From positions 1-64,000 of the forward strand of contig CALXQE010000032.1 of the NCBI GenBank assembly GCA_944390495.1: a DNA stretch of 64,000 nt, in the 5' to 3' direction. Within the stretch, counting starts at the first letter, position 1, and each line of letters starts with the position of its first letter. The DNA is from an uncultured Clostridia bacterium. Lineage in GTDB: Bacteria > Bacillota > Clostridia > UBA1381. The position numbers and the translations under genes are program-made. Below the pieces are notes generated by a model. The model worked only from the letters and a program-made list of their open reading frames with translations. It had not been told where the DNA came from and ran no database searches. Of this stretch, positions 52,508 to 64,000 are shown piece after piece.

Positions 52508-52511
52508 TTGG

Positions 52512-52538
52512 ACTCCCGAATTTTTCGGGAGTTTTTTT
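52512..52538 (+). terminator. Terminator after fbp
   Basis: ACTCCCGAA and TTCGGGAGT with a small T loop and a following run of T. Confidence 0.9.
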
Positions 52539-52576: not shown

Positions 52577-52605
52577 TCGACAAAAAAGAAGAAATTTGAT
52601 ATAAT
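52577..52605 (+). promoter_or_regulatory. Promoter of the FHA/kinase operon
   Basis: TCGACA (52577-52582), 17-bp spacer, perfect TATAAT (52600-52605). It is the only clear promoter seen before the eleven-gene run that reaches the window end. Confidence 0.8.
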
Positions 52606-52639
52606 ATTAACTGGATATTTTTGCGTAGAAGGTATAAGA

Positions 52640-53059
52640 ATGGATTCGGAAAAGAAAAAAATATTAAATGATTTATTGTTTATATTTATAATAAGTTTTG
52701 TATACGGATTCTTTTGTATTATAGGTATAGGCTGTCCAATCAAATTTTTAACAGGTATTTCTTGCGGGGGTTGCGGAATGACAAGGGCATGGATTAGTGT
52801 TTTGAAATTTGATTTTTTATCTGCCTTTGAATATCATCCGCTGTTTTGGACAATTCCGTTTATTATATCTTGTTTTTTATTACGCAGAAAAATAAATAGG
52901 TATTTACTTAAAACATTAACTGTTTTGACTATTATACTTTTTATAGGTGTATATTTATACAGAATGTTTTGTGGATCTGGTGATATTGTAGTATTTAGTC
53001 CGCAAAATGGATTTGCGGTGAAAATATTAAATTTAATTTTAGGAGGAATTTGGGGATGA
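52640..53059 (+). CDS. DUF2752 membrane protein
   Basis: 139 residues with three hydrophobic segments (LLFIFIISFVYGFFCIIGI, LFWTIPFIISCFLL, LLKTLTVLTIILFIGVYLY) and the family signature GISCGGCGMTRAW. The function is not known. It is the first gene of the FHA/kinase operon, and its 3' end overlaps the next start by four bases, so it belongs to the set. Confidence 0.85.
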   Translation: MDSEKKKILNDLLFIFIISFVYGFFCIIGIGCPIKFLTGISCGGCGMTRAWISVLKFDFLSAFEYHPLFWTIPFIISCFLLRRKINRYLLKTLTVLTIILFIGVYLYRMFCGSGDIVVFSPQNGFAVKILNLILGGIWG

Positions 53060-53907
53060 TTAGAGAGGACAGAAGTTTGGGGATTCTTATTTTACTTTCT
53101 TTTGTGACATGTGGTATTTATTCATTGTACTTTTATCATCAGCTTGCAAGGGATATGAATGTGGTTTGTCAAGGTGACGGTGATAATACACGCGGTATAG
53201 GTATGTATATTTTATTTAATATTTTGACATGCGGCATTTACAGCTATATATGGTTTTATCAGGTTGGACGCCGTCAGCAGGATAATGCAGGAAGATACGG
53301 TTTAAATATTCATGAAGGTGGTTCTGCAGTAGTTTTGTGGATGATTTTCGGTGCATTTATAATTGTAGGTCCGTTTATTGCAGTAAATATTATAATAAAG
53401 AATATGAATGCCCTGGCAAGAGCATATAACAGAGGAATGAATGCGAAAAATTCAAACTTTCAAGGAAATAGTTACGGAATGAATGAGAATAAATCCGAAA
53501 GACCTATGATAGTACAAAATAATGAGTTTAATAATACAAGTTGCGATGTGCTTACCAGGGATAGTGCAGTAACTGAGCCAATAAAGAATGAAAGAACACA
53601 AACAATACAGCTTAGATGCACAAATGGTGAGTTTGCAGGATATTCATTCCCTGTTGGTGAAAATGAAAGAGTTTTGATAGGCAGGGATATGAATTGTAAT
53701 ATAAAATTCGATGTAAAAACACCAATGGTCAGCCGCAATCATTGTGTATTTGAATATGACGGCACAAATGCATGGCTTACTGATAATAATTCATCATACG
53801 GGACATTCCTTGGTGACGGTACAAAGATTGAACCTATGAAGCGTGTAATGTTACTTCCCGGAACAAGTTTTTATTTGGGAAGTAAAGAGGTTATGTTTTC
53901 AGTGTGA
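53056..53907 (+). CDS. DUF4234 membrane protein with C-terminal FHA domain
   Basis: 283 residues from ATG 53056 (AGGAGG nine bases upstream). The N-terminal half is a DUF4234 unit: the repeated pattern VTCGIYSLYFYHQ and LTCGIYSYIWFYQ plus a third helix (WMIFGAFIIVGPFIAVNII). A polar linker leads to a FHA domain (about 180-283): IGRDMNCNIKFD, SRNHCVF, NNSSYGTFL. FHA domains bind phosphothreonine, so this is a membrane protein that can be recruited by the kinase of this operon. Exact job unknown. Confidence 0.9.
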   Translation: MIREDRSLGILILLSFVTCGIYSLYFYHQLARDMNVVCQGDGDNTRGIGMYILFNILTCGIYSYIWFYQVGRRQQDNAGRYGLNIHEGGSAVVLWMIFGAFIIVGPFIAVNIIIKNMNALARAYNRGMNAKNSNFQGNSYGMNENKSERPMIVQNNEFNNTSCDVLTRDSAVTEPIKNERTQTIQLRCTNGEFAGYSFPVGENERVLIGRDMNCNIKFDVKTPMVSRNHCVFEYDGTNAWLTDNNSSYGTFLGDGTKIEPMKRVMLLPGTSFYLGSKEVMFSV

Positions 53908-53916
53908 GGTGGTAAA

Positions 53917-54903
53917 ATGAAGAGAAAAAAATCATTGGCTATAATAATAGCGGTAGTATGTATAGGAACGCTGAGTGCTGGAGGATACATATTTTTAAGT
54001 AATAACGGAAGTGTGGGAGATTTTATTAATGATAGTTATGGTAGCAGTAAAACAGTTGAAATAACACAGGCTCCTAAGGAAACAGAAACTGCACAAACTA
54101 CTGTTTCGGAAAATGAAAAAGTGCAGAACACTCCATTGGTTACAGAATCAGTAAAGAAAAAAGATGCAAGTACTGAAAAAAAGAGTGGTACGTTGAAAAA
54201 CTTTCTTGAAAATGCAATGAAACCTGTTGGACAAACACTTTATGTATATGGTGGCGGCTGGAATGAAGAAGATACAGGTGCCGGCAAAGAGGCTGTTACG
54301 ATAGGTTTATCTCCAACATGGAAAAGTTTTTACGAATCACAGGGAGCAGATTATGACAGCGATAATTTCCGTTATCAAATAGAAAAGGGATTAGATTGTT
54401 CAGGATATATAGGCTGGGTTGTTTATAACACCATTGAAAAAGAGAGCGGAAACAGCGGATATGTATATAAGGCTGAAGAATATGCCGATGTGTACAGCAG
54501 TATGGGATTTGGAACAAAAAGCGAGGCAGGTACATTTTCGGATTACAGACCGGGTGATATTCTTTCATCAAAAACTGATTATCATGCGTGGATTTCGCTT
54601 GGTCAATGCTCAGACGGAAGCGTAGTTTTGGTAAATTCATCGCCGCCGGGTGTTAGAATATGTGGTACAGCAACGCCTCAGGGAAATGAAAACAGTGAGG
54701 CCGTTAAAATTGCGGAGCAATTTATGCGTGAGCAATTTCCGGACTGGTATGAGAAATTTCCTGACTGCAAAAAAGGAGTTAATTATCTTACAGACTATGA
54801 CAGAATGAGATGGGATTTAAGCGGAAACGGAGTTTTAACAGATCCGGAAGGTTATTGTGAGCTTATGGCAGATGAAACATTGACTGATTTATTTTTAGGA
54901 TAG
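53917..54903 (+). CDS. Membrane-anchored NlpC/P60-like peptidoglycan hydrolase
   Basis: 328 residues. N-terminal membrane anchor (SLAIIIAVVCIGTLSAGGYIF), a Thr/Lys-rich linker about 40-95, then a cysteine-peptidase domain with GLDCSGYIGWVV (Cys) and DYHAWISLGQ (His), and SSPPGVRICG after it. These enzymes cut peptide bonds in wall stem peptides outside the membrane. The spacing of Cys and His is wider than in minimal NlpC domains. It is embedded in the signalling operon, which suggests wall cutting is one output. Confidence 0.85.
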   Translation: MKRKKSLAIIIAVVCIGTLSAGGYIFLSNNGSVGDFINDSYGSSKTVEITQAPKETETAQTTVSENEKVQNTPLVTESVKKKDASTEKKSGTLKNFLENAMKPVGQTLYVYGGGWNEEDTGAGKEAVTIGLSPTWKSFYESQGADYDSDNFRYQIEKGLDCSGYIGWVVYNTIEKESGNSGYVYKAEEYADVYSSMGFGTKSEAGTFSDYRPGDILSSKTDYHAWISLGQCSDGSVVLVNSSPPGVRICGTATPQGNENSEAVKIAEQFMREQFPDWYEKFPDCKKGVNYLTDYDRMRWDLSGNGVLTDPEGYCELMADETLTDLFLG

Positions 54904-54918
54904 AATTGGGGGATATTA

Positions 54919-56640
54919 ATGGAAGATTTAAACAAGCTTTGTCTTGGTTGTATGAAGAAAAAGGATTCAGAGGGGAAATGTCCGTATTGTGGATTTGATA
55001 TTAATGAATATAATCCGCCATTACATCATCTAAGAACAAAAACAATATTAAACGGTAAATATTGGATAGGAAAAGCGATTGGTGAAGGTGGTTTTGGAAT
55101 CACATATACAGGTTGGGATCTTAACCTTGAAATCAAGGTTGCAATTAAAGAATATTTCCCTAATGGTTTTGTTTCGAGAGATGTGTCAAATACGGATACT
55201 TTAACAGTATTCTCTGGCTCAGACCGTGAAAATTATGAAAAGGGCAGAAAGAAATTTATTGAAGAAGCAAAGGCTTTAGCTAAATTTGAAAATTTACCAG
55301 GTATTGTTTCTGTAAAGGATTTCTTTTTAGAGAACGGAACAGCATATATCGTTATGGAATTTATAGAAGGTGAAACACTGAAAGAATTTCTAAAACGTAA
55401 CGGCGGAAAGACATTACCTGAAAATATTTTTGAGATGATGCGTCCTTTGATGAAATCACTTATAGAAGTGCATAAAAAAGGGATTATTCACAGGGATATA
55501 AGTCCTGATAATATCATGATAACGGGAAATTCGGAAGTTAAATTACTTGATTTTGGTGCGGCGAGAGATATAAGCGGGAATAATAAAAGTTTATCTATAC
55601 AGCTAAAACCAGGTTATGCTCCTGAAGAACAATACAGAAGTCACGGCAATCAAGGGCCTTGGACAGACGTGTATGCGCTTTGTGCTACGATGTATCGTGC
55701 TATAACGGGTAAAACACCGATAGAATCTTTGGAAAGAATACAGAATGATACACTCATAAGACCATCACAAATGGGGATTCAGATTGACATTGCCCAAGAA
55801 AATGCAATTATGCAGGGCATGTCTGTATTTGCAAAGGATAGATTTCAAAGTATAGAAGCATTATATAATGCCTTATATAATAGTGATAAAGAGATAAGTA
55901 ATGATAAAGGAAGCGGTGTATATAATATACCGCCGTCGAAAAATACTTATGCAGGTAGTGGGTATAATAAGGAGCCGGTGCAGACGGGAATATATCAGCA
56001 GCCTAATTTTAATTCGCCTCAAAATCAATATCCGCAGCAAAGAAATGATAATGGCATTAAAATAGCACTTATAATTATGGGTGCGGTTATAGTTGTTGTA
56101 GCTACTGTTATAGCGGTATTGTTGTTTTCAGGTTTAAGTGATAAAGATACATCGCCGACATCGTCACCTGCTGTAACATCAACACCTCAGCCGACGCTGC
56201 CTCCTGCACCGGTATTCACCAGTGTAAGTGCCACTTCAACAAGAGGAATGGACTATACTTCAGGAGTGGGGATAAATTACTATCCGGAATATGCAATTGA
56301 CGGAGATTATACAACAGCGTGGTCGTCGGACAGAAATATTGAGCTTACCCCTACAATAACGTTAAGTGCATCGACAAAACAACATGTTACAGGTATTAAA
56401 TTAGCTAATGGCTATTTTAAGAATGAGAATACATACACAAGAAACAGAAGAATAACCAAAGTGCTTGTTGAATATGAGGGAGGAAGTAAAATTCAGGATC
56501 TTGATATTAATCAGTACAGAATTATGCAGGATATAAAATTTGATGCTCCGGCTGATACATCTTATATAAGTATAAAGGTTCTTGAAAGCTATTACGGTGA
56601 CTGGAAAGATATTGCAATAAGTGAAATAGAAGTATATTAA
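54919..56640 (+). CDS. Transmembrane Ser/Thr protein kinase with zinc ribbon and extracytoplasmic ligand domain
   Basis: 573 residues. Zinc ribbon C8-C11-C21-C24; kinase domain about 45-320 with glycine loop GEGGFGIT (55-62), K77 in VAIKEYF, catalytic loop H191-R-D193-ISPDN, D211-F-G and APEEQY; one membrane helix about 380-402; a Pro/Ser/Thr linker; and an outer beta-sandwich about 440-573 (YAIDGDYTTAWSS, ISIKVLESYYGDW) like discoidin or NADase-type glycan-binding domains. In the catalytic loop Ser replaces the usual Lys two residues after the Asp, a variant common in bacterial kinases of this type. It is the only kinase in the operon. Confidence 0.93.
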   Translation: MEDLNKLCLGCMKKKDSEGKCPYCGFDINEYNPPLHHLRTKTILNGKYWIGKAIGEGGFGITYTGWDLNLEIKVAIKEYFPNGFVSRDVSNTDTLTVFSGSDRENYEKGRKKFIEEAKALAKFENLPGIVSVKDFFLENGTAYIVMEFIEGETLKEFLKRNGGKTLPENIFEMMRPLMKSLIEVHKKGIIHRDISPDNIMITGNSEVKLLDFGAARDISGNNKSLSIQLKPGYAPEEQYRSHGNQGPWTDVYALCATMYRAITGKTPIESLERIQNDTLIRPSQMGIQIDIAQENAIMQGMSVFAKDRFQSIEALYNALYNSDKEISNDKGSGVYNIPPSKNTYAGSGYNKEPVQTGIYQQPNFNSPQNQYPQQRNDNGIKIALIIMGAVIVVVATVIAVLLFSGLSDKDTSPTSSPAVTSTPQPTLPPAPVFTSVSATSTRGMDYTSGVGINYYPEYAIDGDYTTAWSSDRNIELTPTITLSASTKQHVTGIKLANGYFKNENTYTRNRRITKVLVEYEGGSKIQDLDINQYRIMQDIKFDAPADTSYISIKVLESYYGDWKDIAISEIEVY

Positions 56641-56652
56641 TGGGTGGGAAAA

Positions 56653-57552
56653 ATGGATTATAATGAAATTAGAAGACGACGTATGATAAAAGAAGGAAAA
56701 AAAGTACCGCCTTCAAATAAATTTGATAAATTAATTATTTTAGCGGTAATTGTACTGGCTTTGTCAATAATATGCGGAGTTATTATAGTTATTAAAATGA
56801 TTCCGCAAAAACCTCAAACGGAAAATAATATGACAGATTTAGTTACACAGCCGCCGAGCGTGGAATATATTGTAACTCCTGAACCTACTGCGACAGCTAT
56901 GCCGACGATAGAACCTATTTCATCTATGGGAACAAAGGAATCTATTCCATCTGATGTGTGGGCATCTATGCAGGGAAGGTCATGGACAGAAAATCCGAAT
57001 GTTGGATATGAAGATTTAATGTATCTGACAATTCCTCACTATGACTTTAATTATGAAGTTTGTGAAGGACATATGGTTGTTGCGGCAGATGTAGCAGATG
57101 AAGTTTTGAGTATTTTTGCAGAATTATTTGAAATACAATATCCGATAGAACGTATGGAGCTTGTGGATAAGTATTTTGATAATCTTACGGACACATTTGA
57201 TACACCTGACAGAAATTCTATGGGACACAATAATACATCAAGTTTCTATTACAGAGTTGTAAACGGAACAAGCAGTATATCACAGCACGCATACGGCAGA
57301 GCAATAGATCTTAACCCTTGTGTAAATCCATGGGTACAGGGAAGTAGTGTAAGTCCGAGAAATGCAGGTAAGTTTGCTGATAGATCTTTGTATAAATCAG
57401 ATACAGATTTTATGAATTGGACAGATACAGAGAAAGCTGCGTTTATAGGTTATGATACAGAAGTATATGAAATATTTGCAAAATACGGATGGGAATGGGG
57501 CGGTTCATGGAGCAGTTACCAAGACTACCAACATTTCCAAAAAAAGAGATAA
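56653..57552 (+). CDS. Membrane-anchored M15 D-Ala-D-Ala carboxypeptidase-like peptidase
   Basis: 299 residues from ATG 56653 (GGGTGGG upstream). One N-terminal membrane helix (LIILAVIVLALSIICGVII), a Pro-rich linker to about 100, then the M15 fold with zinc ligands H and D in SQHAYGRAIDLNP and H in DYQHFQK; W in WEWGGSW is near the site. The family trims the terminal D-Ala of peptidoglycan peptides or cleaves cross-bridges outside the cell. With the NlpC/P60 protein it forms the wall-acting part of the operon. Confidence 0.88.
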   Translation: MDYNEIRRRRMIKEGKKVPPSNKFDKLIILAVIVLALSIICGVIIVIKMIPQKPQTENNMTDLVTQPPSVEYIVTPEPTATAMPTIEPISSMGTKESIPSDVWASMQGRSWTENPNVGYEDLMYLTIPHYDFNYEVCEGHMVVAADVADEVLSIFAELFEIQYPIERMELVDKYFDNLTDTFDTPDRNSMGHNNTSSFYYRVVNGTSSISQHAYGRAIDLNPCVNPWVQGSSVSPRNAGKFADRSLYKSDTDFMNWTDTEKAAFIGYDTEVYEIFAKYGWEWGGSWSSYQDYQHFQKKR

Positions 57553-57557
57553 AGGCT

Positions 57558-58322
57558 ATGGAAAAAACACAGAAAATTAAAAAACCCAAAATGGTAACAC
57601 CATATAATGCTCAGCATATAGGAAACAGAGATGAACAGCAGGATTATTTTGCATATTCAGATTTGTTTAATAAAGAGGAGCAGAAAAAAATAGGAATGGT
57701 TGCGGTATTGTCAGATGGTATGGGTGGTATGTCTAACGGCAGAAAGGCAAGCCATAGGGCAACAGACGTATTTCTTAACTCGTATAGAGTAAGTAAAATT
57801 CAAAATATTCGTGAAAGATTGGTAATGTCTGCACAAAAGGCAAATGATGCAGTTAAATTACTTGGCGGAGCAGGATCAACAATTATTGTTACAGTTATAA
57901 AAGATTGGAATCTTTACTGGCTTTCTATTGGTGACAGCAGAATTTATTTGTACAGAAACGGAAACCTTCTAAGGCTTAATAAGGAGCATAATTACGAGTC
58001 GGTATTAAGTGATATGGTGCTTAGAGGTGAAATATCTGTACAGGAAGCGATTAACAATCCAAACAGACAGGCACTTACGAGTTATTTAGGAATAAATGAT
58101 CTTGAAGAGATTGATATAAATGCACATGATGTTCCGCTCTGCAGCGGTGATTCGATACTGCTTTGCTCAGACGGATTATATAAAGCACTTTCAGATGATG
58201 AAATTGCTGAAATTATAGGCAGTGCAGATGATGATGTATGTGAAGTAATGGTAAATAGTGCGATGTCGAAAAATATCCGTACACAGGACAATATTACTGT
58301 TATGCTTCTTGATATAGACTAA
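57558..58322 (+). CDS. PP2C-family Ser/Thr protein phosphatase 1
   Basis: 254 residues from ATG 57558; the longer frame upstream lies in the peptidase gene. Motifs: GNRDEQQDYFA, LSDGMGGMSNGRKAS (metal Asp), SIGDSRIYLYR, LCSDGLYKALSD and the final DNITVML. Cytoplasmic, no membrane segment. It is expected to remove phosphates put on by the neighbouring kinase. RBS AAAGG. A second, shorter PP2C gene follows at 59419, so the operon has two phosphatases for one kinase. Confidence 0.93.
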   Translation: MEKTQKIKKPKMVTPYNAQHIGNRDEQQDYFAYSDLFNKEEQKKIGMVAVLSDGMGGMSNGRKASHRATDVFLNSYRVSKIQNIRERLVMSAQKANDAVKLLGGAGSTIIVTVIKDWNLYWLSIGDSRIYLYRNGNLLRLNKEHNYESVLSDMVLRGEISVQEAINNPNRQALTSYLGINDLEEIDINAHDVPLCSGDSILLCSDGLYKALSDDEIAEIIGSADDDVCEVMVNSAMSKNIRTQDNITVMLLDID

Positions 58323-58336
58323 AAGGGGGTTGTTAT

Positions 58337-59422
58337 ATGAATAGGAAATGGGTGGTATTATTTTTAGTGATTCTTATTTTTCAAACAACAGCGTCATTTG
58401 CGGCGGATTCAATTCCTTTGAGTGTATCAAACGCGGCAAAATCAGTTGTAAGAATTACTGTTAATAATAGTTTTGGAAGTGAAAATATTTCCGGAATAGT
58501 CATAGACAAGGATAAAAAATATGTGTTGACTAATTTAAGTGATGTTGAAGGTGCGGGCAGTATAACAGTTGGTTCAAACGGAGAGGAAAATATATCTGTG
58601 GCAGGAATTATAGCATCATCTAAGGAAAAAAATCTTGCCGTTATGGAACTTAAAGAAGAACTTGAAAACGTACGTGATGCAAAAATCAAAAAAGACGATA
58701 TAGAAAATGGTACAAATGTGTATGCAGTTAAGTATTACAGCCGTGATAACATAGAGGAAATTTTACAGGGAACTGTGAATTCAAAAAATATGTATACATC
58801 TTCCAAAGGAGAAAATTGTGAAATATATCAGATAACAGCAAATATAAATTTGCAAAATAACGGCGGTGCACTTGTGGATAAGAGTGGTAACCTTGTAGGA
58901 ATTAATTTTTATGACGGGAATACCGAGCAGAATAAAGCAATCACAAGTAATGAAATAATCGGTTTGCTTGACGAAAAAGACATTTCATATAAAAAAGCAA
59001 CAATATTGTATTTTGTTTTGTTAATTATGGCAGTCATAGCATTGATAGGTGCTGCCGTAGTGCTGATTTATAAAAGAGTAATAAAAAAGAAGTTTCCGTA
59101 TATTGTTGGTGTAAGCGGTGAATTTGAAGGACAAAAAATTCCGGTGGGAAAGGAAAATATAAGTATAGGCAGAGATGCAAAATATTGTCAGATTGTGCTT
59201 ATAAATGATGATAAAGCAAGCAGGTGCCATTGCAGTATCCATTATGACAAGATTAAAAATATGTTTGTTTTAACAGATCTTGCATCGACTCACGGCACAT
59301 ATAAAAGCGACGGTGTAAAGCTTGAACCTAAAACTCCTGTATATTTAGGAAACGGAGAAATGTTTAAGATAGGCGACGGGATAAATGTATTTAGAGTCTG
59401 TACAGGAGGTGATATTGTATGA
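58337..59422 (+). CDS. Trypsin-fold pseudoprotease receptor with cytoplasmic FHA domain
   Basis: 361 residues. Signal peptide (ends near TTASFA), extracytoplasmic trypsin/DegP-like domain about 28-215, membrane helix about 225-247, FHA domain about 262-361 (ISIGRDAKYCQIVL, ASRCHCSIHY, ASTHGTYKS). Aligning the DegP signatures by eye, the catalytic His becomes S68 (VLTNLSDVEGAG), the Asp becomes N99 (KNLAVMEL) and the Ser becomes N175 (LQNNGGALV). All three are lost, so the outer domain probably binds peptides without cutting. It overlaps the next phosphatase gene by four bases. Confidence 0.88.
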   Translation: MNRKWVVLFLVILIFQTTASFAADSIPLSVSNAAKSVVRITVNNSFGSENISGIVIDKDKKYVLTNLSDVEGAGSITVGSNGEENISVAGIIASSKEKNLAVMELKEELENVRDAKIKKDDIENGTNVYAVKYYSRDNIEEILQGTVNSKNMYTSSKGENCEIYQITANINLQNNGGALVDKSGNLVGINFYDGNTEQNKAITSNEIIGLLDEKDISYKKATILYFVLLIMAVIALIGAAVVLIYKRVIKKKFPYIVGVSGEFEGQKIPVGKENISIGRDAKYCQIVLINDDKASRCHCSIHYDKIKNMFVLTDLASTHGTYKSDGVKLEPKTPVYLGNGEMFKIGDGINVFRVCTGGDIV

Positions 59423-60135
59423 GAATAGCCGTAGTTAGCGATAAAGGCGGCAGAAATATAAATGAAGATTCAGTCGGCAGACTGAAAAGAGATGGGATAT
59501 ATTGTTTTGTCTTAGCTGATGGACTTGGAGGTCACGGCGGAGGAGAAACGGCTTCATCTGTTGCGGTAAAGACTGTTTTGCAGTGTTTTGATTCACAGGC
59601 AGAAGTGTCAGAGGATATATTGTATGCTTACCTTGAAGCGGCTCAAAATGCAATAAATGAAAAAAGACAGGAAAATACTGCACTTAGCAAAATGAGCACA
59701 ACAATTATTGTGCTTGTTACAGATGGTAAAAAAGCCGTATGGGCACATTGCGGTGACAGCAGATTGTACAGATTTAAAGGAAACCTTATACAGGAGGTCA
59801 CAGACGATCATTCGGTAGCTTTTGTATCATTTGTGGCAGGAGATATAGAGTATGATGACATAAGAAGAAGTCCCGATCAAAATCGTCTTTTAAGAACCCT
59901 TGGCGATAAATCTAAATTTGAACCTGATATAGCAAAGGTTCAGAAGATTAACAAAAAGACAAGCTTTTTAATGTGCAGTGACGGTTTCTGGGAATATGTT
60001 GATGAGGATTATATGGAAGAGGCGAGAAAACAATCTTCATCACCTAAGGAATGGCTTGCAGGGATGCTTGAAGAAAGACGAAAGAATGCACCGGTGGATT
60101 GTGATAATTACAGTGCTATCGCGGTGTTTATTTGA
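59419..60135 (+). CDS. PP2C-family Ser/Thr protein phosphatase 2
   Basis: 238 residues. MRIAVVSDKGGRNINEDSV, LADGLGGHGGGETASSVAV, HCGDSRLYRFKG, LMCSDGFWEYVDED and CDNYSAIAVFI are intact PP2C metal-binding motifs. Cytoplasmic. Its start overlaps the pseudoprotease-FHA stop (ATGA), so the two may act as a pair. The sequence is clearly different from the phosphatase at 57558. Confidence 0.93.
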   Translation: MRIAVVSDKGGRNINEDSVGRLKRDGIYCFVLADGLGGHGGGETASSVAVKTVLQCFDSQAEVSEDILYAYLEAAQNAINEKRQENTALSKMSTTIIVLVTDGKKAVWAHCGDSRLYRFKGNLIQEVTDDHSVAFVSFVAGDIEYDDIRRSPDQNRLLRTLGDKSKFEPDIAKVQKINKKTSFLMCSDGFWEYVDEDYMEEARKQSSSPKEWLAGMLEERRKNAPVDCDNYSAIAVFI

Positions 60136-60173
60136 TAAATAATTTTATATGAAAGAAAGGTATGTGATTTATT

Positions 60174-60770
60174 ATGGCAATGAAAAGGTGTGCAAACGGA
60201 CATTTTTATGACGATGCAAAATATCAGCAATGTCCATACTGTGGTATATCAAATATGGACTTATCAAGGACAGTACCTATTATACAGGACAGACCTGCCG
60301 GAGAAGCGGCAGTAAACAATAACGGAGGTGCTGTTGGAAGAACTATGTCAATAGCTGAAACGGTAGGTCCTAATAATTATTGTGGCAGTGATGATGACGG
60401 CAAGACAATAGGATTTATGCAAAGTACAAAGGGAATAGATCCTGTTGTTGGTTGGCTGGTTTGTGTTGAAGGAAGTGCAAAGGGAAAGGATTACAGAATA
60501 AAATCTGAGAAGAATTTTATAGGCCGAGATCCGTCAATGGATATTGCTATTACGGGCGATATGAGCATTTCACGTGAAAATCATGCAGTTATAAGTTATA
60601 ATCCTAAAAATAACAGCTTTAAATTGTTCCCTGGTGACGGACGCGGTATTGTTTACTGTAATGATGAAGAAGTTTACAGTCCTGTTGCAATTAAAAGAGG
60701 CGATATTATTGAAATGGGAGAAAGTAAACTTATTTTTGTTCCGCTTTGCGGGGAGGACTTCACATGGTGA
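60174..60770 (+). CDS. Zinc-motif FHA adaptor protein
   Basis: 198 residues, soluble. The N-terminal CANGHFYDDAKYQQCPYCG is a Cys/His zinc motif of the kind also found at the N-terminus of the kinase. A linker rich in Gly/Asn with possible phosphothreonines (SRTVPI, GRTMSIAETVG, KTIGF) leads to a FHA domain about 100-195 (IGRDPSMDIAI, SISRENHAVIS, GRGIVYCND). Thr-rich linkers are good kinase substrates and the FHA could bind a partner's or its own phosphothreonine. Likely a cytoplasmic adaptor; partner unknown. Confidence 0.88.
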   Translation: MAMKRCANGHFYDDAKYQQCPYCGISNMDLSRTVPIIQDRPAGEAAVNNNGGAVGRTMSIAETVGPNNYCGSDDDGKTIGFMQSTKGIDPVVGWLVCVEGSAKGKDYRIKSEKNFIGRDPSMDIAITGDMSISRENHAVISYNPKNNSFKLFPGDGRGIVYCNDEEVYSPVAIKRGDIIEMGESKLIFVPLCGEDFTW

Positions 60771-62299
60771 GAAAAAATTTCATAATATCATTGATTATTG
60801 TGACTTTATGTATGATGAATACGTCAGTATTTGCCGGTGAACTTTATAGTGTTGATGTAAGACAGGTGTATTGCTTTTCAGATTTGTTTAGAGTATATGC
60901 AGATATAGAAGATATTGAGTCTAATCCTGTAAATAAACCGAATACATCAGATATAGCAGGATATATAGACGGAAATAAGCTTACAGTAAAAAATGTACAG
61001 AGGTTTGGTGACACGAATGAAGGTGTGGCAGATATTTTCCTTGTAGATATTTCAGGCTCTATGGGAAATAACCAAATGGTACAGGTTAAAGAGGCTATAA
61101 AAACTTGGGCAGCAAATATGAAGGAAAATGACAGAATTGCTATAATTACCTTTGGCGATGAAGCAAAATGTATATTAGATTATACAAACGATAAAACAGT
61201 TATAGATAAAGCCGTTGATTCTGTTACCAATAATGATATGAAAACCAGACTTTTCGGCGGTATCGACGAAGCTTTAAAGCTTGCTACAAGAAATGACAGT
61301 TCTCTTGCAAAACGTAAAAATATAATACTTATAACAGACGGTATTAATGATTACAGTGGTGGTATAAGTGAAAATGATATTTACAGTAAGCTAAAAGAAA
61401 GTCTTATTCCTGTATATAGTATGTGGATGCCGAGTTCAGGTACGAACGGTCAAGGGGGACGAGCAACTCTTAATTCAATTACGGAGTACTCAGGCGGAGA
61501 AATTTATGATATGTCGAATAAACAGATAAATGTAGTTTATGATTGGATATATCAGAGTATAAGAAATTCATATACAGTTGATTTTGCTTACGGCACATCA
61601 GCGGCAGATGACGGAGTACATAACTTTAATATAAAAGTTGCACAGGGTGATAAAATAGCAGAGGATAGTATTAGCTTTAATTATAGAAAAACAGATGAAA
61701 AATCCGGTGCGTACAGTTTATCAGATACTAATGCAGAACAAAATAGTGACAGTGAAGATAGTGATAATAATGACAATAAAAAATTTATTATTATATTTTC
61801 TGTAATTTTATTTATACTTGCAGTCGGTATTTTGTTAACCGTTATATTTATTAAAAGGAAACAGTCATCAACAAAAAATTACTATGACAATGAAAGCTTT
61901 TTTAATGGTGGTTTTGGAAATAGTGATAATATAGATTATGTAAATAGCTATAACGACAATAATATGTCGTATCAGACAATGGATGCCACTATGAATGTAA
62001 ATAATAGCGGAGAAGTTATTCTTACAAGTATAGCAGACGGAATGGAAAAATGTGCAGTAATATCATCACCGATTAGGATAGGACGAGGTCCTAATAATGA
62101 AATTGTTATAGATGATAGTCTTGTTTCAGGACGTCATTGTGTTATAACAGCAGAAAACGGCAACGCATACATAGAAGACTTAAATTCAACAAACGGTACA
62201 ATTTTAAACGGTATGATTATAACCAATAAAACTTTAATAAGGAATAATGATGTTATTCGTATTGGCAGCAGAGATTTTAGAATTACATTAAATTTCTGA
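60764..62299 (+). CDS. VWA-domain receptor with cytoplasmic FHA domain
   Basis: 511 residues from ATG 60764 (GGGGAGGA upstream), overlapping the previous stop by seven bases. Signal peptide 1-25, extracytoplasmic von Willebrand A domain with the metal site D95-I-S-G-S99 and ITFGDEA, LITDGIND, an additional beta region about 270-325, membrane helix about 338-362 (IIFSVILFILAVGILLTVIF), an Asn-rich linker, and FHA about 425-511 (IRIGRGPNNEIVI, SGRHCVI, LNSTNGTIL). The VWA may bind a wall or protein ligand. Topology equals that of the pseudoprotease receptor. Confidence 0.92.
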   Translation: MVRKNFIISLIIVTLCMMNTSVFAGELYSVDVRQVYCFSDLFRVYADIEDIESNPVNKPNTSDIAGYIDGNKLTVKNVQRFGDTNEGVADIFLVDISGSMGNNQMVQVKEAIKTWAANMKENDRIAIITFGDEAKCILDYTNDKTVIDKAVDSVTNNDMKTRLFGGIDEALKLATRNDSSLAKRKNIILITDGINDYSGGISENDIYSKLKESLIPVYSMWMPSSGTNGQGGRATLNSITEYSGGEIYDMSNKQINVVYDWIYQSIRNSYTVDFAYGTSAADDGVHNFNIKVAQGDKIAEDSISFNYRKTDEKSGAYSLSDTNAEQNSDSEDSDNNDNKKFIIIFSVILFILAVGILLTVIFIKRKQSSTKNYYDNESFFNGGFGNSDNIDYVNSYNDNNMSYQTMDATMNVNNSGEVILTSIADGMEKCAVISSPIRIGRGPNNEIVIDDSLVSGRHCVITAENGNAYIEDLNSTNGTILNGMIITNKTLIRNNDVIRIGSRDFRITLNF

Positions 62300-62318
62300 A
62301 ACGGCGGGGGAGTTAAGT

Positions 62319-64000
62319 GTGAAAGATAAAAATAACTTCTTAATTATCGTTGATGGTAATAGAGAAGTAAGAGAAGTGGATTTAAATGCTTTTAGAAGTG
62401 ACAGGATAAGTTTTGGAAGAAACAGTTCAAATAATATTGTTCTAAGCAGCAGTATTGTATCGAAGGAACATGGTTTTTTTGAATTTGTAGGAGATAAACT
62501 TGTAATATATGACGGAGGCAGTACAAACGGAATTTATGTAAATAACAGTTATTATAAAACCAATTATAACGGCGAAACCGATGTACATATTCTTAAAGAC
62601 GGAGATATTATAAGGATTGACAACAAAGATTTAAAAGATGGGCATACTATGGGAATACTTATGATGTATACAACATCAAAAAGTCCGGGAGTGTGGAAAA
62701 AACTTGATTTAAATCAAAAAAATAGTATTACTATAGGACGTTCAAAACAGTCTGACATACATTTTAGCAGCATTAATATTTCAAGACATCATGCACAGAT
62801 AAGACGTGAAAACGGTAAATTTGTATTATATGATACAAAAAGCTCAAACGGAGTATTTGTTAATGGTGAGCGTGTTTATAATTTCACAGCATTAAATGAA
62901 AAGGATATTATTACAATCGGTAACTTGGTAATGTTTTTTACCTCGGGGCTTATACTTTATAAGTCTGATGTCGGAGGTACAAGAGTTGTAATGAAAAATG
63001 TATCCAGAACGGTGAAAGATAAGGGCGGAAGAAAATTTATATTGACAGATGTTAATTTAACAGTCGAGCCAAATGAATTTATAGCTGTTATAGGCGGCAG
63101 CGGTGCCGGTAAATCTACCGTCATGAATGCTATGAGCGGGTTTGAACAGGCTACGTCAGGAAGTGTGTATGTAAATAATATAGACCTTTATAAAAACTAT
63201 CAAGTATTAAAAAATATGATAGGATACGTTCCGCAGCAGGATATTATATATGAAAATATAACACTTTTTAAGATGCTGGAGTATTCGGCTAAAATGAGAA
63301 TGCCGGAGGAAATTACAAGGGAAGAACGTATAAACAGAATAAATGAAGTGCTTAGTATGGTCGAACTTACGGAGCACAAAGATAAGTTTATACGTTCTTT
63401 AAGCGGCGGACAGAAAAAGAGAGCAAGTATTGCCGTGGAACTGCTTGCAGATCCTGGATTGTTTTTTCTTGACGAACCAACTTCAGGGCTTGATCCCGGT
63501 ACAGAGGCAAGCTTAATGAAAACCCTTAACAGATTAGCAAAGAATAAAGGAAAAACGATTGTTATGGTTACCCATACAACACAAAATTTACATCTGTGCG
63601 ATAAAATTTTGTTTATGGGCAAGGGAGGAAAGGTATGTTTTTACGGTTCACCGTCAGAATGTATGGACTTCTTCGGCGTAAACAATCTGACAGAAATATA
63701 TAATAAAACAACTACTGACAGTGAAGTAGACTTTTGGGCAAGTAAGTACATAAAAGAATACGGAAATGTAGAAAAAAATAATTATTCAGGTGTAAATAAA
63801 AAAAGTGATAAAGGCAAAAAATCATCGTCTGTAAGGCAGTTTGTAATTTTATCCGCAAGATATATGACACTTATAAAAAATGACATACAAAGACTTTTGA
63901 TGATATTTTTACAGCCGATACTTATTGCAATATTAATAGCACTTGTTGCATCTGATGATGTATTTGACCTTTACAATTCTACACGTTCAATTTTGTTTGC
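62319..64000 (+). CDS. FHA-FHA-ABCG-type transporter (partial, runs off window)
   Basis: GTG start behind GGGGGAG; open to the window end (about 560 codons). Two FHA domains (about 15-125: SFGRNSSNNIVL, SKEHGFF, GGSTNGIYV; about 130-215: IGRSKQSDIHF, SRHHAQI, KSSNGVFVNG) precede an ABC ATPase with GGSGAGKST, LSGGQKKRASIAVELL and FFLDEPTSGLDP, then a linker and the first membrane helix of an ABC2/ABCG permease (LQPILIAILIALVA). It should continue with about five more helices. The FHA part makes transport, or a mechanochemical role, responsive to phosphorylation. Cargo unknown. Confidence 0.92.
   Translation, partial: MKDKNNFLIIVDGNREVREVDLNAFRSDRISFGRNSSNNIVLSSSIVSKEHGFFEFVGDKLVIYDGGSTNGIYVNNSYYKTNYNGETDVHILKDGDIIRIDNKDLKDGHTMGILMMYTTSKSPGVWKKLDLNQKNSITIGRSKQSDIHFSSINISRHHAQIRRENGKFVLYDTKSSNGVFVNGERVYNFTALNEKDIITIGNLVMFFTSGLILYKSDVGGTRVVMKNVSRTVKDKGGRKFILTDVNLTVEPNEFIAVIGGSGAGKSTVMNAMSGFEQATSGSVYVNNIDLYKNYQVLKNMIGYVPQQDIIYENITLFKMLEYSAKMRMPEEITREERINRINEVLSMVELTEHKDKFIRSLSGGQKKRASIAVELLADPGLFFLDEPTSGLDPGTEASLMKTLNRLAKNKGKTIVMVTHTTQNLHLCDKILFMGKGGKVCFYGSPSECMDFFGVNNLTEIYNKTTTDSEVDFWASKYIKEYGNVEKNNYSGVNKKSDKGKKSSSVRQFVILSARYMTLIKNDIQRLLMIFLQPILIAILIALVASDDVFDLYNSTRSILF

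Follow-up and report, generated by a model that had tools for sequence, protein, structure and literature searches.

What is known of ABC exporters gated by FHA domains comes mainly from a single mycobacterial protein, Rv1747 of M. tuberculosis. PknF, encoded in the same operon, phosphorylates Rv1747 and modulates it positively. Rv1747 is implicated in the export of a wall component, with wall or lipid export suspected, and its cargo is unsettled. Phosphorylated Rv2623 binds Rv1747 via FHA I. Coupling of an FHA-FHA-ABC exporter to a kinase is already known from the PknF-Rv1747 pair, which an earlier note on the DNA described here did not mention. Exporters of this type have a long, threonine-bearing linker between FHA1 and FHA2 that is phosphorylated by the kinase. 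Small FHA proteins of the GarA/OdhI type, targets of PknG and PknB in Actinobacteria, are phosphorylated on threonines of their N-terminal segment. In Sulfolobus, the zinc-finger FHA protein ArnA is paired with the vWA protein ArnB under Ser/Thr kinases. The T7SSc-j clusters of Bacillota, too, often include kinases, PPM phosphatases and FHA and vWA proteins, and the Actinobacterial pstP-rodA-pbpA-pknA-pknB-fhaA/fhaB cluster genetically links PP2C, kinases and FHA proteins to wall synthesis.

We analyzed a window of 64,000 nucleotides (the whole stretch of DNA under study) from an uncultured Clostridia bacterium (UBA1381), a gut bacterium with a 2.3 Mb genome that is 97% complete. The window spans positions 1 to 64,000 of the forward strand of contig CALXQE010000032.1 (assembly GCA_944390495.1), and all features below lie on the plus strand. 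Starting at position 52640, eleven genes follow one another with intergenic spacing of -64 to +38 bases. Upstream are the strong intrinsic terminator of the fbp gene (52510-52534; an 11-pair stem, then a T run) and a promoter, TCGACA-17-TATAAT, with a TG before the -10 box (extended -10; 52577-52605); at 11/12 it has the top score in the 20-kb region. The remaining promoter-like matches are at about chance level (111 versus 89 +/- 9.6), and a scan of the gene junctions of the operon found no strong terminator. This bears out the earlier description of a same-strand run with overlaps or short gaps behind one promoter. The count of eleven genes holds within the window, but the ABCG gene has its stop outside it, at 64634, and is followed at +22 by a twelfth gene (64657-65475), kept in relatives, for a zinc ribbon-TM-PsbP-like protein. 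The operon comprises at least 12 genes and reaches at least position 65475, past the window end.

Pfam agrees with the gene content previously read from the letters: a kinase, two PP2C phosphatases, six FHA domains, VWA, M15, a DUF4234-FHA protein, an FHA adaptor and an FHA-FHA-ABCG protein. The matches comprise DUF2752, DUF4234-FHA, kinase with a NADase_transloc discoidin domain, M15_4, PP2C (twice), Trypsin_2-FHA, FHA, VWA-FHA and FHA-FHA-ABC-ABC2. Compared with the Actinobacterial pstP cluster, the operon has no SEDS/PBP genes and its FHA architectures are different.

The FHA-FHA-ABCG half transporter (62319-64000, on to contig position 64634) has intact Walker and signature motifs. Its Pfam domains are two FHA, ABC_tran and ABC2_membrane, the NBD preceding the TMD. 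FHA domains 1 (62406-62618) and 2 (62727-62921) keep all six checked FHA residues, and the top PDB match of the pair is the Rv1747 FHA (E = 1.1e-10). As in PknF-Rv1747, an FHA-FHA-ABC half exporter thus shares an operon with a Ser/Thr kinase (54919-56640), here not adjacent to it. However, the mycobacterial system has two genes and this one twelve, the extra ones including those for two PP2C phosphatases, an FHA adaptor, two receptors with FHA domains and wall peptidases. The FHA domain hits are also separated by a short linker, KDGHTMGILMMYTTSKS, of about 17 residues, unlike that of Rv1747.

Orthologous exporters are found in the dcw cluster, with ftsZ immediately upstream, at 20 loci, mostly in Lachnospiraceae (one clade, 100/100). 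No operon kinase adjoins these copies, and they have an N-terminal TxYFD motif that is missing from the exporter described here. We found no report of an FHA-ABCG gene adjoining ftsZ in Lachnospiraceae in the open-access literature, subscription journals not being covered. Because exporter relatives sit beside ftsZ in many gut bacteria, gene context gives moderate support to a link between this locus and control of the cell envelope.

All six FHA domains found in the 97%-complete genome lie within the operon. G, R, S and H are kept in 6/6, and the FHA domain of the VWA protein keeps all six checked residues. The zinc-ribbon FHA adaptor (60174-60770) has lost the N-G pair, and its FHA domain may not bind phosphothreonine in the usual way. 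Its nearest relatives in both sequence and fold are GarA and OdhI: GarA entries are its sole PDB relatives at E <= 0.01 (phmmer E = 2.8e-5), and GarA/OdhI occupy Foldseek ranks 1 to 6. Like them, the adaptor is a small FHA protein whose FHA domain is preceded by a disordered segment bearing a conserved threonine motif. Residues 28-83, predicted to be disordered (pLDDT < 50), include T78, which lies in the candidate phospho-acceptor motif D-D-G-K-T78-I-G-F-M (60393-60419). Whereas mean conservation of the linker is 0.30, T78 is invariant (19/19), and K77 is kept in 18/19. Across relatives the motif reads D-D-x-K-T-[VI]-[GSA], instead of the ETTS motif of GarA/OdhI. A second conserved linker threonine, Thr33 (codon at 60270-60272), is kept in 16/19. 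The adaptor further differs from GarA/OdhI in its zinc ribbon, several acceptor-like motifs, membrane-operon context and loss of the N-G pair, and nothing about it points to 2-oxoglutarate metabolism.

The adaptor linkers of class A loci contain 16 [RK]T[VIMTL] motifs versus 1.06 in shuffles, a comparison of related sequences that overstates their independence. Enrichment of acceptor motifs is strong in zinc-ribbon FHA linkers and in the N-termini of dcw-linked ABCG proteins, weak in class A VWA and DUF4234 linkers, and absent from other VWA and DUF4234 linkers. A single acceptor motif shared by all FHA linkers is therefore not supported.

The Hanks-type kinase, recognized by Pfam and NCBIfam, has intact catalytic motifs. 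It consists of an N-terminal zinc ribbon (CxxC...CxxC at residues 8-24), the kinase domain, a TM segment (384-402) and an outer discoidin-like (NADase_transloc) domain; operon kinases of relatives carry beta-lactamase-fold or PASTA ectodomains. Both phosphatases match Pfam. PP2C a (57489-58322), whose true start is probably downstream of the called start, has intact metal-binding motifs; PP2C b (59419-60135), also with intact motifs, occurs in all class A loci that were read across that stretch. A separate PrpC-PrkC-like PP2C-kinase pair is encoded on contig C99 of the same genome.

The operon opens with a DUF2752 membrane protein (52640-53059; Pfam E = 1.7e-17), whose gene, left undescribed in the earlier note, also heads the class A operons and those of three further loci (L055, L057, L058). 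It is followed by a DUF4234-FHA membrane protein (53050-53907; Pfam), the FHA domain of which keeps G, R, S and H and has N replaced by Y. The third gene (53917-54903) encodes an anchored extracellular Cys-His protein that is NlpC/P60-like by motif only. Its former assignment to NlpC/P60 is thus tentative: the DCSG...H pair is conserved, but neither Pfam nor the PDB yielded an NlpC/P60 match, and the poor AlphaFold2 model (pLDDT 37) lends no support. One relative has a sub-threshold NLPC_P60 match (E = 0.011), and there are relatives fused to SLH domains. The membrane-anchored M15_4 protein (56644-57552; Pfam E = 8e-23), of D-Ala-D-Ala carboxypeptidase type, retains HxxxxxxD and the C-terminal His.

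Two receptors, both recognized by Pfam, combine an outer domain and a TM segment with an inner FHA domain. In the first (58337-59422), the H/D/S triad of the trypsin-like domain is replaced by S/N/N. The fold thus appears inactive here, as formerly proposed, but a relative (L044) retains all three residues, which rules out a pseudoprotease as a conserved trait of the locus. The second (60746-62299; TM 348-366) has a VWA domain with MIDAS motifs DISGS and ITDG; preceded by a hydrophobic signal-like segment at the N-terminus and followed by the TM helix, this domain is predicted to be outside the cell. The zinc-ribbon adaptor adjoining a VWA-FHA protein recalls ArnA-ArnB; however, descriptions of ArnB include neither a membrane-anchored outer VWA nor an FHA domain, and the output of that system is archaellum expression.

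Because FHA is found in 18/70 family genomes, we consider the locus accessory. Homologous clusters occur in relatives: the order PP2C-ZnFHA-VWA-FHA is kept in 13 of the 15 VWA-FHA loci, and similar gene kinds recur together across families (L055, L057, L058). Their composition, however, is not fixed. The G006 operon has no ABCG gene, the flanking genes being joined; the G029 operon is without VWA, the pseudoprotease and one PP2C (PP2Ca); and the M15 gene is either inside the operon or divergent. Judging from gene content, some relatives can do without the exporter, the VWA protein or the pseudoprotease. The G006 operon also rules out ABCG as operon core, and because of it the exporter cannot be the sole output. 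M15 is kept in distant operons in which ABCG identity is only 46-47%. The ftsZ-adjoining ABCG genes, this retention of M15 and the kinase ectodomains speak for the envelope-linked phosphothreonine system proposed at the outset, although its make-up varies from locus to locus.

On balance we lean towards an accessory kinase-FHA relay, in which the GarA-like adaptor would couple surface sensing to the Rv1747-like exporter and the wall enzymes. This membrane-centred phosphothreonine relay would act on the cell envelope, apart from the PrpC-PrkC-like pair. The discoidin-like domain of the kinase may sense an envelope ligand, upon which the kinase would phosphorylate linker threonines of the adaptor, foremost T78 (DDGKTIGFM). 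The phosphorylated linker could dock on the adaptor's own FHA domain or on those of the VWA receptor, trypsin-like receptor, DUF4234 protein or exporter. Docking would determine the activity or clustering of the exporter and how the anchored wall enzymes are coordinated with it, and the two phosphatases would reset the relay. T78 phosphorylation by the kinase, the FHA partner, control of transport by binding and the exported cargo are thus putative elements of the relay. Several observations speak against this reading: the exporter has a short FHA1-FHA2 linker and no TxYFD motif, the adaptor FHA domain is without the N-G pair, the G006 operon has no exporter, and the dcw-linked copies have no operon kinase beside them.

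The strong variation in content, with ABCG missing from G006, VWA, Trypsin and PP2Ca from G029, and M15 inside or divergent, would also fit a loose surface operon whose FHA, PP2C and kinase modules share a promoter while the exporter and wall enzymes escape kinase control. We regard this as unlikely, given that the gene kinds recur jointly across families and that the exporter and both receptors contain fused FHA domains in which most binding residues are kept. The matching signalling domains of T7SSc-j clusters in related bacteria raise another alternative, a control module or remnant of a type VII secretion system, its signalling proteins regulating an EssC-type translocase with ABCG and wall enzymes as accessories. 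Indeed, one genome (G008) encodes an EssC-like FHA-FtsK protein and WXG100 proteins some 5 kb away from its copy of the operon. The 97%-complete genome studied here, however, yielded neither a WXG100 match nor an EssC candidate, which rules out T7SS membership in this genome; its FtsK/SpoIIIE matches are one on contig C67 (581-aa frame) and one below the cut-off. An ABCG exporter stands in place of the translocase and has independent dcw linkage, and no T7SS gene was recognized in the flanks read of three other operons (G000, G006, G029). The type VII origin is, in our view, quite improbable.

VWA, PP2C and kinase occurring together, a patchy distribution, and PADLOC models that match the kinase, one PP2C and the ABC ATPase might suggest stress or anti-phage defence akin to TerY-P, MADS or PD-T4-6 kinases. 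Yet the PADLOC matches correspond to generic kinase and ATPase regions, no nuclease or other toxic effector was recognized in the operon, the receptors and peptidases face outwards, and the contexts of relatives are wall and division genes; a defence role is very hard to credit. Membership in the TerY-P triad, already rejected in the earlier note, is ruled out by the absence of TerD from the genome, the predicted extracellular VWA and the N-terminal zinc ribbon of the kinase, which is C-terminal in TerY-P kinases.

Extending the kinase-FHA relay, we tentatively raise a broader reading, itself rather doubtful: a phosphothreonine code, [DE]-x-[KR]-T-[VI]-x-[aliphatic/aromatic], would switch FHA-FHA-ABCG exporters of gut Clostridia for division or wall functions. 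GarA-like zinc-ribbon FHA adaptors or the exporter's own N-terminus would carry the code, such that the ftsZ-linked exporter might be self-regulated and the operon exporter controlled in trans by surface receptors. With orthologs tied to ftsZ and the dcw cluster in many Lachnospiraceae, and one here amid wall enzymes and a complete kinase-phosphatase-FHA circuit, there is a tractable non-pathogen setting for finding the cargo and switch of such exporters, and the invariant T78 narrows the envelope-signalling idea to one residue.

A family-wide search found close orthologs of the kinase in 7/70 genomes. Plasmid carriage of the kinase was rejected, the matches being distant and confined to the kinase domain. 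Most matches of the family-wide search were to less closely related kinases, and many of these had the size of PrkC.

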